In this document: piece by piece, positions 28,985 to 34,744 of the stretch
Position numbering within the stretch: the first letter of the stretch is position 1
Layout: every line of letters starts with the position of its first letter
From: a virus
Reading direction: 5' to 3' (one strand)
DNA: 39,150 nucleotides
Virus record (IMG/VR): IMGVR_UViG_3300050821_015342
Location: 1 to 39,150 of that record
The notes under the pieces: generated by a model
The model's input: the letters and a program-made list of their open reading frames with translations, nothing else
Told to the model about the DNA's origin: nothing
The model's database searches: none
Program-made: the position numbers and the translations under genes

Positions 28985-29849
28985 GTCAGCCTCCCCAGGC
29001 GCCGCTCAGCCGGAACCAACGCCTGGCACTCCCGCCGGGGCGGTGGAAGCTGCTCCGGCGGCTTCTTCCGAGATGGTTGCTCCGGTCGAAGCCGTAGCTG
29101 CTCCGGCGGTTGAAGAGGCGCCGAAGCCTTCTTTGGTCTCTGAGGCCAAAGCTGAGCCTGCCGAAGAGGTAAAGCCGGAAGCGGCCCCCGAATCGAAACC
29201 GGAAGAGCCCAAAGCCGAGGAGCCGAAGGCTGAAGAGCCCAAGGAAGAACCCAAGGCCGAGGAAAAGCCGGAAGAGAAGAAACCTGAGCCCCGCCCAGCC
29301 CCGGTCTTCGAAAAGTACAAATTCCCCGACGGCGTTACCGTCGATGAGGCCCGGGTCACAGCGTTCAACGGACTTCTGGGGGATGCGGAAACCCGCATCG
29401 CTACCGATCCGGAACAGGCCCACGCGGTCATGCAGGAACTCGGACAAAAGTTGGCCGACTTCCACATCCAGGAAATAGCCAATGCTTCTCAGGCTGCGGC
29501 CCGTCTGAATCGTGAGCACTGGGACCGCACCCGGGAAAACTGGGTCAAGGAATTTCGCGACGATCCGGTGCTCGGAAAGAACCGCGCCGATACGACCCTC
29601 TCTCAGATCGGCGCCTTGATTGACATGTACGGCTCCCACGCCGGTGGTGATGAGGTCACCCGTCTCAGGGATGACTTCACGATGACCGGCATGGGCGACA
29701 CACCCCGAATGATCCGGTTCATGAACTGGGCGGCATCTCGCCTCGTGGAGACCCGGCGCATCGTCATGCCGCAGCCAACAATCAAGGCTCCGGCGCAGAC
29801 GCCTGGACAGAAACTTTACGGAAACACCCCTATGACGAGGACAGCCTAA
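28977..29849 (+). CDS. Capsid scaffolding protein
   Basis: The 290-residue protein has an acidic low-complexity N-terminal half with KPEEPKAEEPKAEEPK-type repeats (about 60-105), followed by a helical C-terminal half (FEKYKFPDGVTVDEARVTAF, AHAVMQELGQKLADFHIQEI). The end, LRDDFTMTGMGDTPRMIRFM, is like the LR-x-x-x-x-TG-[LM]-G-[ND]-x-P-x-[ML] segment of podoviral scaffold proteins. Scaffolds of this type template procapsid assembly and leave before maturation. It lies immediately before the major capsid protein with a one-base stop-start overlap (TAATG). Confidence 0.85.
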   Translation: MSESASPGAAQPEPTPGTPAGAVEAAPAASSEMVAPVEAVAAPAVEEAPKPSLVSEAKAEPAEEVKPEAAPESKPEEPKAEEPKAEEPKEEPKAEEKPEEKKPEPRPAPVFEKYKFPDGVTVDEARVTAFNGLLGDAETRIATDPEQAHAVMQELGQKLADFHIQEIANASQAAARLNREHWDRTRENWVKEFRDDPVLGKNRADTTLSQIGALIDMYGSHAGGDEVTRLRDDFTMTGMGDTPRMIRFMNWAASRLVETRRIVMPQPTIKAPAQTPGQKLYGNTPMTRTA

Positions 29850-30892
29850 TGGCATTCCTTTCTTTGATGGACGCCGCCCGCCGCATGGACCCTGACGGGC
29901 AGATTGCGACCATCGCTGAGCTATTGTCTCAGACCAACGAATTTTTCCGCGACATGACCTGGACCGAGTCCAACACCGACACCGGCCACAAGTCCACGGT
30001 CCGTACCGGATTGCCCCAGGGCGTGTGGCGCATGGCCTATGCCGGTGTGCCCTACGCCCGTTCGACCACCGCCCAGGTGACCGACGGTCTCGGGTATCTC
30101 GCAGCCTACTCGCAGATCGACAAGCGGGTTGCCGATCTCGGCGGAAAGGTCGCCCAGATCCGCCTCACTGAGGACTCGGCCTTCCTTGAAGGTATGTCCC
30201 AGCAGATGGCGACCACCTTCTTCTACGGCAACCAAACCACGCAGATGTCGCAGTTCACCGGGTTTGCACCGCGGTTCAACACGGTCTCGACGTCAAACGC
30301 CCAGAACGCCCAGAACGTCATCAACGGCGGTGGCACCGGGTCCTCGAACCTGTCGATCTGGCTCGTTGGTTGGGGCGACATGACCAACTTCGGCATCTTC
30401 CCGAAGGGCACCAAGTCCGGCCTCGTGTTCGAGGACCGCGGCGACATCGTTCCTGGTTACGATAGCAACCAGAACCCGTTCCCGGCCTACACCTCGTACT
30501 TCGAATGGAACGCCGGTCTCGTCGTGAAGGATTGGCGCTACTGCGTCCGCATCGCCAACATCGACACCACCACCGGCGCACAAGGACTGTTCGGCACCAC
30601 CCCGCCAGACCTGTTCCTGCTCATGTCCAAGGCTGTCGTCCGGTTCCCAACCCTCACCAAGCGCGCATCAGGAATTACCGAGACGGACGCACCCGACGAA
30701 CCGGCGCCGGGCATCAATCCTGGGTTCTACACGAACCGCACAGGGCGCGAGTCGCTGGACATTCAAGCTATACGTGACAAGAATGTTCTCCTAAAACCCA
30801 CCGAGTATGCTGGGAATCCGGTCATAGAGTTCCGTTCTATCCCCATACGTGTGTGTGACACATTGTTAAACACGGAATCGACCTTGACTTAA
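29849..30892 (+). CDS. Major capsid protein (HK97-fold expected)
   Basis: The 347-residue protein matches the capsid family of BPP-1/T7-like podoviruses: LLSQTNEFFRDMTWTESNTD, TGHKSTVRTGLPQGVWR (46-61), GVPYARSTTAQVTDGLGYL (66-84), FPKGTKSGLVFEDRGDIVPG (184-203) and WRYCVRIANIDT (229-240). It ends with the usual [FE]-RS-IPIRVCDTLLNTE. Residues 194-220 carry an EDRG...PGY...FPAYTSYFEW loop that recurs in three small proteins elsewhere in the window. The last 45 codons use ATA, TTA, AAA and CTA far more than the rest of the gene. An HNH endonuclease gene follows after 122 bases. Confidence 0.93.
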   Translation: MAFLSLMDAARRMDPDGQIATIAELLSQTNEFFRDMTWTESNTDTGHKSTVRTGLPQGVWRMAYAGVPYARSTTAQVTDGLGYLAAYSQIDKRVADLGGKVAQIRLTEDSAFLEGMSQQMATTFFYGNQTTQMSQFTGFAPRFNTVSTSNAQNAQNVINGGGTGSSNLSIWLVGWGDMTNFGIFPKGTKSGLVFEDRGDIVPGYDSNQNPFPAYTSYFEWNAGLVVKDWRYCVRIANIDTTTGAQGLFGTTPPDLFLLMSKAVVRFPTLTKRASGITETDAPDEPAPGINPGFYTNRTGRESLDIQAIRDKNVLLKPTEYAGNPVIEFRSIPIRVCDTLLNTESTLT

Positions 30893-30941
30893 CCAACCAT
30901 CTGAAAAGACTGTATATCCAGGTGACTTTTGTTAGTCCAAT

Positions 30942-30994
30942 GATCGGATTTATCGGGACTCATGGCGCAAGCCATGGTATGCTCGCGTCCGATC
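30942..30994 (+). promoter_or_regulatory. Two-stem RNA structure in the leader of the HNH gene
   Basis: GATCGGA (30942-30948) pairs with TCCGATC (30988-30994). Inside, CATGGC (30961-30966) pairs with GCCATG (30971-30976) around a GCAA loop, a GNRA-type tetraloop that stabilises RNA hairpins. The outer stem ends just before the GGAAAGGA ribosome site of the endonuclease gene (ATG 31015). Such leader structures control expression of free-standing phage homing endonucleases, for example in T4; here the role is inferred. It could also reduce read-through from the capsid gene. Confidence 0.5.
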
Positions 30995-31014
30995 TGTTGG
31001 AAAGGACAAAAGTC

Positions 31015-31875
31015 ATGCCTTGGAGCGATAAGGACCGCGAGAAGTACGGCAGCAGCTATTCTGAGTGGTCGTCGGAGCGGAAGCAGCACAACCTCGACTG
31101 GCAGAAGGCTCGCCGCGATGCGAAGGCGATCGAGGAAGGGCGCACCCCGGGAAAGGTCGGGCGTCCCCCAGTACTGACGCCCGAGGAAAAGGAAGCGAGC
31201 CGGATCGCGCAGAACAAGAAGCGGACGGCTCGCACGCTTGCGAAGCGGACGGCCCAGAGGGCTACCAAGGCTCTTGCTGAGGGACGCGTCCCAGGTCAGG
31301 CCGGCCAGCCTCGCGTTCTAACCGACGAGGAGCGGCTTGAGCACGTCCGCGCCAATTACGCCCGGTGGCGCCAAAGGCATCTTGAGGAAGCGCGCTTGGC
31401 AGACGCTGAGCGAGCCCGAGCCAGGACGGCTGCCCGCGCGGTTGCGGAAGGCCGTGTGCCCGGCATTGTAGGCCATCTCGCGACATTCTCGGCAGAGGAA
31501 CTGGCCGCCTACCTTGAGCGCTGGCCGCGCGACAAGGATGTCTACCACAACCGCATCCAGACCCAGAACTCGCGGGCCAAGAAACTTGGCCTGCCTGGCA
31601 AGCTGACCGCGATGGATATTCGCGAAATCTATATCGAGCAGGCCGGTCACTGCGCTTTCTGCGCCAAGCCATTTGGCGACGAGATTCCTGAGATCGACCA
31701 CTGGGTTGCCATGAACAACGGTGGCCCGAACACACGCGACAACATCCGGCTGCTGCATAAGACGTGCAACCGGACGAAGGGCGACAGGCCGCTTGAGGCG
31801 TACGGGCTGTTCCCGCTGCATCAGGCGATGACCGATCGCCCACCCGACGATCCTTTTCTCACTCAACAGGAATGA
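31015..31875 (+). CDS. HNH endonuclease with three N-terminal repeats
   Basis: ATG at 31015 follows GGAAAGGA at eight bases, giving 286 residues. The C-terminal catalytic domain has HCAFCAKPF (C213, C216), IPEIDHWVAMNNGGPN (D228-H229) and NIRLLHKTCNRTKGDR (N243, H248, C251), a complete zinc-stabilised HNH motif. The basic N-terminus holds three copies of an AEGR-[VT]-PG-x-x-G element (residues 38-58, 86-106, 142-162), each after an Arg/Ala-rich helix, likely DNA-binding repeats. It is probably a free-standing homing endonuclease inserted between capsid and cement genes. The 3' end contains the ribosome site of the cement gene. Confidence 0.85.
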   Translation: MPWSDKDREKYGSSYSEWSSERKQHNLDWQKARRDAKAIEEGRTPGKVGRPPVLTPEEKEASRIAQNKKRTARTLAKRTAQRATKALAEGRVPGQAGQPRVLTDEERLEHVRANYARWRQRHLEEARLADAERARARTAARAVAEGRVPGIVGHLATFSAEELAAYLERWPRDKDVYHNRIQTQNSRAKKLGLPGKLTAMDIREIYIEQAGHCAFCAKPFGDEIPEIDHWVAMNNGGPNTRDNIRLLHKTCNRTKGDRPLEAYGLFPLHQAMTDRPPDDPFLTQQE

Positions 31876-31878
31876 GTC

Positions 31879-32391
31879 ATGCTTTTTGACCTGAATCTCC
31901 TTTTCTGGCACTCCGGCACGGGCGAACAGCTTACATCTGGCGAGTATGTGAACCTTGCCGGTTTGACGGCTGGTTCGGCGTCGTCTGTCATCAATTTGGG
32001 CAATGCGCGCGATCTGGGTATCGGCAACGGGCCGGATACGCCGATGGTTGCGCTGTCGGTCGGGACGGCGATTACCTCGTCCTGCCAGTCGACCTTGTTG
32101 AACTTCCAGTTCCAGGGTTCGACCAACTCGGTGCTGTGGACCACGTATGCTGAGTCAGGCGCGGCCTCGACGGCTTCGTATGTGGCTGGTGCGCAGCCGC
32201 TGCCGATCAACGTGCCGCGGCGTCCGACCGGGGTTGGCCTGCCGCTGTATTACCGGATCAACCTCGCGCAGACCGGCAATGCCGTCGCGGAGACGATCTC
32301 CACCGGGTCGATCATCGGCGGGATTGTGCTGGCGCGGGCGGATTCCCCAGATACACTCGGCCTTTATCCGAGTGGCTTCCAAGTTAGCTGA
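31879..32391 (+). CDS. Bbp16-type capsid cement protein
   Basis: The 170-residue product has ASSVINLGNARDLGIGNGPD then TPMVALSVGTAI, LLNFQFQGSTNSVLW, and RPTGVGLPLYYRINLAQTG near the end. This order matches the Bbp16 family cement proteins of BPP-1-like capsids (DLG-x-x-RD-[IL]-G-x-G...LQ-x-S-x-[DN]...LP-x-x-x-RY-[LI]-R-L). Cement proteins stabilise the expanded shell. It would normally follow the capsid gene directly; here the HNH gene separates them. AGGAATGAG just upstream serves as ribosome site. Confidence 0.8.
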   Translation: MLFDLNLLFWHSGTGEQLTSGEYVNLAGLTAGSASSVINLGNARDLGIGNGPDTPMVALSVGTAITSSCQSTLLNFQFQGSTNSVLWTTYAESGAASTASYVAGAQPLPINVPRRPTGVGLPLYYRINLAQTGNAVAETISTGSIIGGIVLARADSPDTLGLYPSGFQVS

Positions 32392-32407: not shown

Positions 32408-32968
32408 TCATACCGCTTCGTCAACGTCATCCTCCCTGGAGAAGTCCCCGTGAAGCAGGCGCGATACAACCCGGTAGCACTTGGAGGCATCCTCGGCTGT
32501 CTTCCAGTACCCCAGGCTGTGCTCGCGCCCGCCCACGGTAATGCGGGCATGCCAGAGGCCACTTGCCTTGTGGAGTCGAACGCCTCTGTAGCCGCAGACG
32601 TTGTTGGCCTGAGCGGTCCGGTTGACGGTGTTCAACTGGTTTGTGGCCAACCGGAGATTTACGATCCGATTGTCGTCTCTGATCATATTGATGTGATCGA
32701 TCTGATCGGGCGGCCAGGAGCCATGGACGTAGCACCAAGCTACCCTATGGGCCAGGAACTTGCGGTTGAAAAAGGTGAGCATCCGGTACCCGAGACCCAT
32801 CGTTGTTCCGGCGACCTTCCCAGCGTTCTTTCCGTTCCATCCGAGGGAACAACCTGCGGTGCCCTCTTCTCGGTGCTTCCATACGAAGACACCGGTCTCG
32901 GGATCGTAGCCAACGAGGCGTCGGATCTCTTCGGCGCTCACCTCTGCTTCTCCAGGATGTTCTTCCAT
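32408..32968 (-). CDS. HNH homing endonuclease with AP2 DNA-binding domain
   Basis: The 186-residue protein has the usual layout of HNH-AP2 homing nucleases. GYDPETGVFVWKHR (20-33) and GYRMLTFFNRKFLAHRVAW (60-78, H74) lead into the catalytic PPDQIDHINMIRDDNRIVNL (86-105, D91-H92, N100/N104) and LRLATNQLNTVNR. Residues 127-166, YRGVRLHKASGLWHARITV then HSLGYWKTAEDASKCY, form an AP2 domain. It lies antisense between the cement gene and the next virion gene. With 31015 it makes two unrelated HNH genes bracketing the cement gene. The region up to 33035 (66 bases) holds no other gene. Confidence 0.88.
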   Translation of the reverse strand: MEEHPGEAEVSAEEIRRLVGYDPETGVFVWKHREEGTAGCSLGWNGKNAGKVAGTTMGLGYRMLTFFNRKFLAHRVAWCYVHGSWPPDQIDHINMIRDDNRIVNLRLATNQLNTVNRTAQANNVCGYRGVRLHKASGLWHARITVGGREHSLGYWKTAEDASKCYRVVSRLLHGDFSREDDVDEAV

Positions 32969-33649: not shown

Positions 33650-33888
33650 TGGCCTGTCAGGACTGCTCCTACTGGACGCCTGGGTCCGTGATCCCGCTCA
33701 CCGATCCTGTCCTGAGGGCGACGTACGGTCTCTGCCGTCCGCAGTTCGGCCTTCTGCCGTTCTGGGCGGCGAGAGCGGAGCGGGACATGCAGACCAACAC
33801 GCTTCCTGTTGAAGGTTCGGGTTGCCCCGGGTTCCAGGCGATCGGGCCACACGCAAGGGCAGCGCGTAACCTGGCGAGGGCCGCCTGA
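33649..33888 (+). CDS. Small Cys-containing protein
   Basis: ATG overlaps the upstream stop. The 79-residue product MACQDCSYWTPGSVIPLTD has C3 and C6, a third cysteine in GLCRPQFGLLPFW and a fourth in GSGCPGFQAIG. The C-x2-C-x-[YF]-W...GLC...GCPGF layout resembles the small four-cysteine proteins found near capsid genes and is similar in style to the 13124 product. Function unknown. Confidence 0.6.
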   Translation: MACQDCSYWTPGSVIPLTDPVLRATYGLCRPQFGLLPFWAARAERDMQTNTLPVEGSGCPGFQAIGPHARAARNLARAA

Positions 33889-34181
33889 TGAAAGTCGTTC
33901 GGTTGTCCGACAATGCCGAGCTTGATGCGATCTTCGAGGATCGGGGTTGCGCCATGCCTGCGTACGATGCGCGCGGCGAATCCTTCCCGGCATGGACTGG
34001 CTATTTCGAGTGCGGCGACGCGTGCGCCTACATTCAGTTTGACCTTCGCGTTGCTCAGGCAGCCGGTTCTCCGGCTCGGGCAAACGCTCTGCTGCGAACC
34101 GAGACCGAGGATTTTATCCGCCAGCTTGGGTTCGAGCCGATCGGCGTCCCGAATTGTGAACTTGCCGACGGGATTCTCTGA
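33888..34181 (+). CDS. EDRG-motif small protein, one copy
   Basis: The 97-residue product MKVVRLSDNAELDAIFEDRG continues with MPAYDARGESFPAWTGYFEC (16-42 for the whole motif) and a helical C-terminus. It is paralogous to the next gene and to 23124, and shares the EDRG...P-[AG]-YD...FPA-x-T-x-YFE segment with the major capsid protein. Coupled to both neighbours by one-base overlaps. Function unknown; a beta-hairpin domain that could pack on the capsid or copy its loop is possible. Confidence 0.65.
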   Translation: MKVVRLSDNAELDAIFEDRGCAMPAYDARGESFPAWTGYFECGDACAYIQFDLRVAQAAGSPARANALLRTETEDFIRQLGFEPIGVPNCELADGIL

Positions 34182-34744
34182 TGAAAGTCACCCGCATGTC
34201 GAACGGCGCCGTTCTGGACGCCATCATGGAAGACCGGGGAACAATCGTTCCCGGTTACGATGCCGAAAGCAACTCGTTTCCGGCGTCCACGGTCTACTTC
34301 GAGTGCGGCGAGACGTACGCCTATCACCAGCTCGATCTGAGGCTGCTTCGGAACGGCCTGACGGAGGAAATCGCCCGCGAACATCTGCGTCGATTTCTCT
34401 CTGGTCTGGGCTTCGAGGCTAAAGACGAGGACCTTCCGGCCCCGGAGATCAAGACCACGCAGCTTTCGGTCATCGAGGCGCGGAGCTACGACGACCGGAG
34501 CCTCGATGTGCGCGGAAAGCACTACGGCGACATCGTGCCGGGATGGGACGACAACAGGAACCCATTCCCGGCGATTACGACCTACCTCGAGATCGAGGGC
34601 GAGCCGCACTGGATCGTAACCAATAAGCTCCACGCCCTGGCGGCCGGGCTTGACCCGGAGGAGGAGCACCAGACCGCGCTGCGTAAGATGCTGTCGGAGC
34701 GCCGCATCCGCGCCCCCGTCGGGCTGCTTGGACTGGACTGCTGA
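34181..34744 (+). CDS. EDRG-motif protein, two copies
   Basis: The 187-residue protein starts MKVTRMSNGAVLDAIMEDRG, with IVPGYDAESNSFPASTVYFE following (first copy, about 16-43). A second, more diverged copy lies at about 115-139: HYGDIVPGWDDNRNPFPAIT then TYLE. The second copy resembles the capsid protein segment (GDIVPGYDSNQNPFPAYT) more closely than the first. Between and after the copies are helical parts (EEIAREHLRRFLSGLGFEAK). It appears to be an internal duplication or fusion of the 33888-type unit. Function unknown. Confidence 0.65.
   Translation: MKVTRMSNGAVLDAIMEDRGTIVPGYDAESNSFPASTVYFECGETYAYHQLDLRLLRNGLTEEIAREHLRRFLSGLGFEAKDEDLPAPEIKTTQLSVIEARSYDDRSLDVRGKHYGDIVPGWDDNRNPFPAITTYLEIEGEPHWIVTNKLHALAAGLDPEEEHQTALRKMLSERRIRAPVGLLGLDC

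Follow-up and report, generated by a model that had tools for sequence, protein, structure and literature searches.

A homing-type HNH gene adjoins a synonymously recoded capsid gene end in a podovirus

Results

A gene for an HNH protein lies directly behind the major capsid protein (MCP) gene of a podovirus, and wherever we found it at this site the adjoining MCP 3' end was rewritten, largely synonymously, with rare codons. We consider it likely that this gene is an intronless homing element of the free-standing kind, its carrier being spared by the recoded MCP end and its expression being gated by an RNA hairpin. The window (the whole stretch of 39,150 bases analysed) is related by its MCP to the Rauchvirus/Tr60_Ab31 group. 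The HNH gene is present or absent at a single site, its HNH motif is intact, its product carries repeats, its leader contains a covarying hairpin, and the recoding is one-sided and found in all carriers. A preliminary description of this DNA had recognised the nuclease, the repeats and a structured leader; it had missed the leader's likely role, the mobile hot spot behind the MCP gene and the recoded MCP end.

Variable occupancy of the MCP-Bbp16 junction

In the window, the MCP gene (29849..30892, plus strand; GP7 family, PF20911, E 1.6e-114), which is the probable target gene, is followed by the HNH gene (31015..31875, plus strand; 286 aa) and then by a Bbp16-like gene (31879..32391, plus strand), the right flank of the insertion. 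We compared 66 distinct MCP loci, window included. An HNH gene occupied the MCP-Bbp16 junction in ten (the window, L003, L004, L007, L010, L011, L022, L035, L066 and L089) and the other 56 were non-carriers. The junction was otherwise nearly empty, with a gap of 14-45 nt in eight HNH-free relatives inspected base by base. MCP and Bbp16 are intact on either side of the HNH gene, and Rfam detected no intron. A genome scan with the MCP returned one distant prophage-like locus, L128.

The MCPs of the window and L003 are 97% identical, whereas their HNH genes share just 33% identity. L010 is a carrier and its sister L012 is HNH-free. An MCP tree that left out the final 60 codons required seven or more gains or losses of the HNH gene, six of them forced by supported branches; six of the ten carriers belong to one clade. 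Such a presence/absence pattern is the one that would be expected of a free-standing homing gene.

One-sided recoding of the MCP 3' end

Between the MCP body and its last 60 codons, GC3 dropped from 0.84 to 0.56 in carriers (n=10), compared with 0.79 to 0.77 in non-carriers (n=56; Mann-Whitney p 5e-7). In the window, the recoded tract covers codons 297-347 (30737..30889, plus strand), with GC3 of about 0.5-0.6 against 0.82 in the body. We scored AGA, AGG, ATA, CTA, TTA and GTA as rare, as a share of all Arg, Ile, Leu and Val codons. Rare codons accounted for 5 of 19 such codons in the window's tract and 1 of 59 in its body. Their share reached 28.2% in carrier MCP ends, as against 9.6% in HNH genes; carrier MCP bodies stood at 1.2% and non-carrier ends at 4.3%. 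Carriers used the family's major codon less at the end (0.38) than in the body (0.67), and non-carriers hardly differed between the two (0.63 at the end, 0.64 in the body). The changes share a left edge near codon 297 and are scattered over codons 297-346; beyond the HNH gene, the 5' end of Bbp16 is unaffected.

All seven carrier/non-carrier pairs chosen on the tree differed in the same direction for both GC3 and rare codons. With a stricter, thresholded tree pairing, 4-5 of 6 pairs did so and none went the opposite way (p 0.06-0.13). Two pairs illustrate the nature of the change. From body to end, amino acid identity between L010 and L012 went from 0.97 to 0.96 and synonymous difference from 0.36 to 0.60; between L004 and L062, the values went from 0.94 to 0.92 and from 0.28 to 0.54. 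The tract is also the most conserved part of the MCP, the kind of sequence that a homing enzyme would be expected to attack. These data fit best with a tract that would be the immunised target of an HNH cutter.

Import is the main rival and we judge it unlikely: donors with AT-rich third positions would have supplied the MCP 3' ends during homing, the odd codons being a donor signature and not the product of selection for immunity. The GC3 of the HNH genes (0.48-0.73) is indeed below that of MCP bodies, and low-GC3 MCPs exist in some members of the family. Furthermore, the MCP ends of L007, L011 and L089 differ in amino acids too, so some tracts may have been imported, not rewritten in place, and import may apply to these three. 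However, the tracts use the six rare codons three times as much as the HNH genes do. They also retain clade-specific residues while codons change (AGAP...RVV in L010 and L012; LLRPTEYAGQP...VVDALL in L004 and L062). The common left edge argues against import as well, as does the finding that MCP ends differ as much between two carriers as between a carrier and a non-carrier.

Rare-codon MCP ends, with shares up to 24%, also occurred in a few non-carriers. In HNH-free L072-L074, L018, L019, L021, L090 and L097, MCP ends showed lowered GC3 and mostly rare codons as well. HNH-free phages with such ends are candidates for lost homing genes or for resistance alleles.

A leader hairpin with a nested promoter-like site

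The HNH reading frame is open over 30922..31875, and its best start is the ATG at 31015, with GGAAAGG nine bases upstream. In the leaderless homologues L089 and L022, the HNH gene starts directly past the MCP stop, at the residue matching the N-terminus given by ATG 31015. The sequence ahead of this start in the window is predicted to fold into a 95-nt hairpin (30922..31016, plus strand) of -48.9 kcal/mol, compared with -30.3 for shuffles (z -5.4 to -6.0; no shuffle as low). Its 3' arm comprises the Shine-Dalgarno sequence GGAAAGG (30999..31005, plus strand) and extends into the start codon, so both are predicted to be paired in read-through RNA. The preliminary description had the feature begin at 30942 and a structured leader with a GNRA loop end just before the ribosome site. 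Structure and loop stand, but the hairpin begins at 30922 and takes the ribosome site and start codon into its pairing. The GNRA loop, GCAA, caps the apical stem CATGGC/GCCATG (30961..30976, plus strand) and is not conserved in L007 or L011.

The leaders of L007 and L011 align to that of the window without gaps. When the window structure was laid on this three-leader alignment, 73% of cells were paired, compared with 36-48% when it was slid. Compensatory changes were present at 8 pairs, against 1-4 when the structure was slid by 1-3 bases. This covariation, from three sequences, is moderate evidence that the predicted hairpin forms. The hairpin is missing from HNH-free junctions and from the three carriers that have no leader (L022, L035 and L089), and a hairpin switch would therefore not be essential. 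Rfam, run on the window, matched no group I intron, omega RNA or other known RNA. An IscB/OMEGA identity was discarded on the lack of an omega RNA family match there.

We sought the best sigma70-like site independently in each of the seven leaders. The E. coli promoter matrix used is only a guide and may not suit the host's sigma factor. In all seven the site appears to lie within the hairpin. The spacer was 16-17 nt in each leader, and the distance from -10 to start was 37 nt in five, 40 in L004 and 57 in L066. Against shuffles, p was <0.002 in L007, 0.01 in L010, 0.03 in L003, 0.05 in L004, 0.07 in L011, 0.24 in L066 and 0.48 in the window. The window site, GGGACT-17 nt-TATGCT (30955..30983, plus strand), is weak, lies inside the hairpin with the apical stem as its spacer, and is homologous to TTGACA-N17-TATCAT of L007.

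A transcript from this nested site would lack the 5' arm, so that the hairpin could not form and the ribosome site would be freed. In silico, the unpaired probability of the Shine-Dalgarno region rose between read-through and promoter-initiated RNA from 0.29 to 0.69 in the window, 0.38 to 0.66 in L007, 0.33 to 0.61 in L011, 0.28 to 0.45 in L010, 0.18 to 0.41 in L004 and 0.16 to 0.23 in L003; no rise was predicted for L066. The HNH gene is probably switched by a hairpin that masks its ribosome site and by a putative internal promoter, the latter proposed from base sequence.

We regard it as quite unlikely that the hairpin serves chiefly as an RNase III-like element, placed between late genes for mRNA processing or stability. 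The long paired stem right behind the most abundant late message would suit that role. On the other hand, the 3' arm spans the ribosome site and start codon, HNH-free junctions and leaderless carriers do without the hairpin, and five copies have the promoter-like site at a fixed internal distance.

It seems very unlikely that the tract reflects regulatory recoding, in which changes at the MCP 3' end would serve the HNH gene behind it by providing a promoter or by slowing ribosomes. At the MCP end, promoter scores averaged 8.6 for carriers against 3.2 for non-carriers, with TTGACA-N17-AARAAT frequent at codons 303-312, and several T4 homing genes are served by promoters within the 3' end of the gene before them (PMC2988022). 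Yet in 9 of 10 carriers these promoters were no better than synonymous codon shuffles, the codon changes are dispersed over the whole tract, and six of the seven leadered copies already possess a promoter-like leader site, with a weaker one in L066. A promoter within the MCP end may coexist with the recoding, but would leave the spread of changes unexplained.

Autorepression of the I-TevI type, through a leader operator resembling the homing site, was also considered and rejected: no similarity exceeded shuffles except in L010 (p 0.04). A translated N-terminal extension was rejected as the explanation of the leader. Third codon positions do not stand out as most variable (14/11/16 for the three positions, against 62/51/123 in the real coding region), and L089, L022 and L035 lack the leader.

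In all seven leadered copies (window 30922-31014; L003, L004, L007, L010, L011 and L066) the HNH reading frame stays open through the leader. The leader would encode hydrophobic peptides of 27-33 residues, and openness had p 0.26-0.40 in each by shuffles. Because the frame is open in 7/7, which is more than an entirely untranslated leader would require, a second HNH isoform may exist.

The HNH protein and its repeats

The window protein (P0001) matches PF01844 at residues 213-258 (31651..31788, plus strand; E 2.8e-9, 37.4 bits against a cut-off of 21.4), in agreement with its earlier identification as an HNH endonuclease. Residues C213, C216, D228, H229, N243, H248, C251, N252 and K255 are invariant in 10 homologues. 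Foldseek against the PDB gave just weak HNH-domain matches (best E 7.8e-3). The HNH superfamily motif is intact, and P0001 would be a free-standing endonuclease of the homing type. That it is instead a packaging or recombination nuclease of the endonuclease VII kind, as its best PHROG (phrog_1035, 'endonuclease VII') might suggest, is extremely unlikely given that the gene is missing at the same locus in most relatives, that unrelated copies replace it, that the neighbouring gene is recoded, and that P0001 has no Pfam Endonuclease_7 (PF02945) match at E 0.1, three homologues matching weakly and below cut-off.

Ahead of the nuclease domain, P0001 carries three copies of a repeat with consensus AxAEGRxPGxxGxPxxLTxEE, spaced by 48 and 56 residues: repeat 1 at residues 38-63 (AIEEGRTPGKVGRPPVLTPEE...; 31126..31203), repeat 2 at residues 86-110 (ALAEGRVPGQAGQPRVLTDEE...; 31270..31344) and repeat 3 at residues 142-167 (AVAEGRVPGIVGHLATFSAEE...; 31438..31515), all on the plus strand. 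A profile trained solely on the copies of other phages scored them at 36.9, 41.8 and 36.6 bits, whereas the best of 1000 shuffled N-termini reached 7.1 bits. These scores confirmed the motif and spacings first proposed in the preliminary description. Its view of the repeats as modular was also supported. Copy number varied at this one site: three in the window, L007, L011 and L089, two in L022 and L035, one clear copy in L003, L010 and L066, and none in L004.

No Pfam model covers the repeat even at E 5, and NUMOD is absent among those matches, so that the repeat is not a NUMOD-type element by this search. P0001 shares the nuclease domain and an Arg-rich helical N-terminus with PHROG 1035 and PF01844 HNH proteins; unlike that domain, the AEGR-PG-GxP repeat lies outside any Pfam model and represents an undescribed addition to HNH proteins. 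In an AlphaFold model (pLDDT 80, pTM 0.40), long helices are linked via PGxxGxP loops, each repeat spanning the end of one helix, the loop and the beginning of the helix that follows. GRP or RGRPP, the AT-hook core, occurs in several copies, a resemblance that we treat as a lead. A role of the repeats in DNA reading is plausible.

Scanning viral contigs with the DNA pattern of the repeat yielded mostly chance frames, plus small one-copy zinc-ribbon ORFs. The latter, in L042, L049 and L051, are 80-120 residues long and have one AARAIAEGRxPGRxGRPP copy ahead of a Cys-rich segment resembling a zinc ribbon, placing the motif outside HNH proteins.

A proposed recoded-rescue mechanism

We propose that the HNH protein, guided to its target by Arg-rich helices and the AEGR-PG-GxP repeats, would cut the conserved 3' part of the MCP gene in co-infecting HNH-free phages. 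Repair off the carrier genome would then install the HNH gene along with the MCP 3' end next to it. The carrier would be spared because its codons 297-347 are synonymously rewritten, mostly to rare codons, destroying the target and keeping the capsid protein. Read-through RNA from the strong capsid operon would fold and hide the HNH ribosome site, and RNA started within the hairpin, lacking the 5' arm, would be translatable. If the cut fell near the left edge at about codon 297, recoding up to the HNH gene would bar repair from ending short of it. With the tract recoded from cut site to insertion point, repair could not part immunity from the cutter.

Tentatively, but as a real possibility, these phages may have evolved several times a natural recoded-rescue homing drive in which an HNH cutter is tied to the synonymously rewritten end of the very essential gene that it attacks. 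Partly recoded non-carriers would then be resistance alleles or past carriers. In the engineered home-and-rescue drive HomeR, a homing cutter reportedly sits beside a synonymously recoded 3' end of the targeted essential gene. Engineered recoded-rescue drives are designed Cas9 drives in insects, and the likeness is an analogy only.

A free-standing homing gene has to leave the genome that carries it uncut, which is usually explained by a mere difference in the target. In the accepted model of intronless homing, the donor resists cutting through target polymorphism (PMC12724721). The genes of T4 SegF and SegG and of Skunavirus HNH enzymes adjoin an essential gene, with the cut expected 100-plus bases off and the donor protected by target polymorphism (PMC2988022, PMC12724721); we propose the same layout and protection here. 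We looked for a comparable synonymous tract in T4 gene 56, beside segF, and rejected it: that gene differs throughout in both amino acids and codons, so the pattern is not that of the MCP tract, which is local, nearly synonymous, rich in rare codons and present in 10/10 carriers. A literature search that reached little of the subscription journals found no report of a synonymous tract beside a homing gene. Intronless homing is already known; what is new here is the sharp, nearly synonymous rare-codon tract. Its recurrence in unrelated carriers could serve as a signature of homing targets and cut sites without experiments, and these phages offer a natural test bed for how homing drives hold cutter and immunity together.

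The leader also has precedents. In T4 I-TevI, I-TevII, I-TevIII and segB and in Aeh1 mobE, a stable hairpin sequesters the ribosome site in read-through RNA, and a promoter inside or just upstream of the hairpin gives RNA unable to form it (PMC2988022). The window has a like arrangement, predicted from its sequence, which differs in belonging to an intronless podovirus gene sited after a capsid gene and in having a putative promoter of sigma70-like and not T4 late type. Timing would differ too, the masked RNA here presumably being capsid-operon read-through. This would extend the T4 hairpin-promoter switch beyond T4-type phages.

Further observations in the window

A second homing-type gene (HNH_3 plus AP2, phrog_99) occupies 32408-32968 on the minus strand, antisense to its neighbours, the Bbp16-like gene and the late gene that follows. 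The last Bbp16 codons adjoining it have GC3 0.5, possibly another recoded end. Downstream, the ORFs at 33888-34181 and 34181-34744 hold one and two copies, respectively, of a segment of about 27 residues (EDRGDIVPGYDxNxNPFPAxTxYFE-like) that has a single counterpart in the MCP (residues 193-219; 55-73% identity, E 4e-5 to 2e-6). These ORFs possibly encode capsid-associated proteins with a reused MCP loop.
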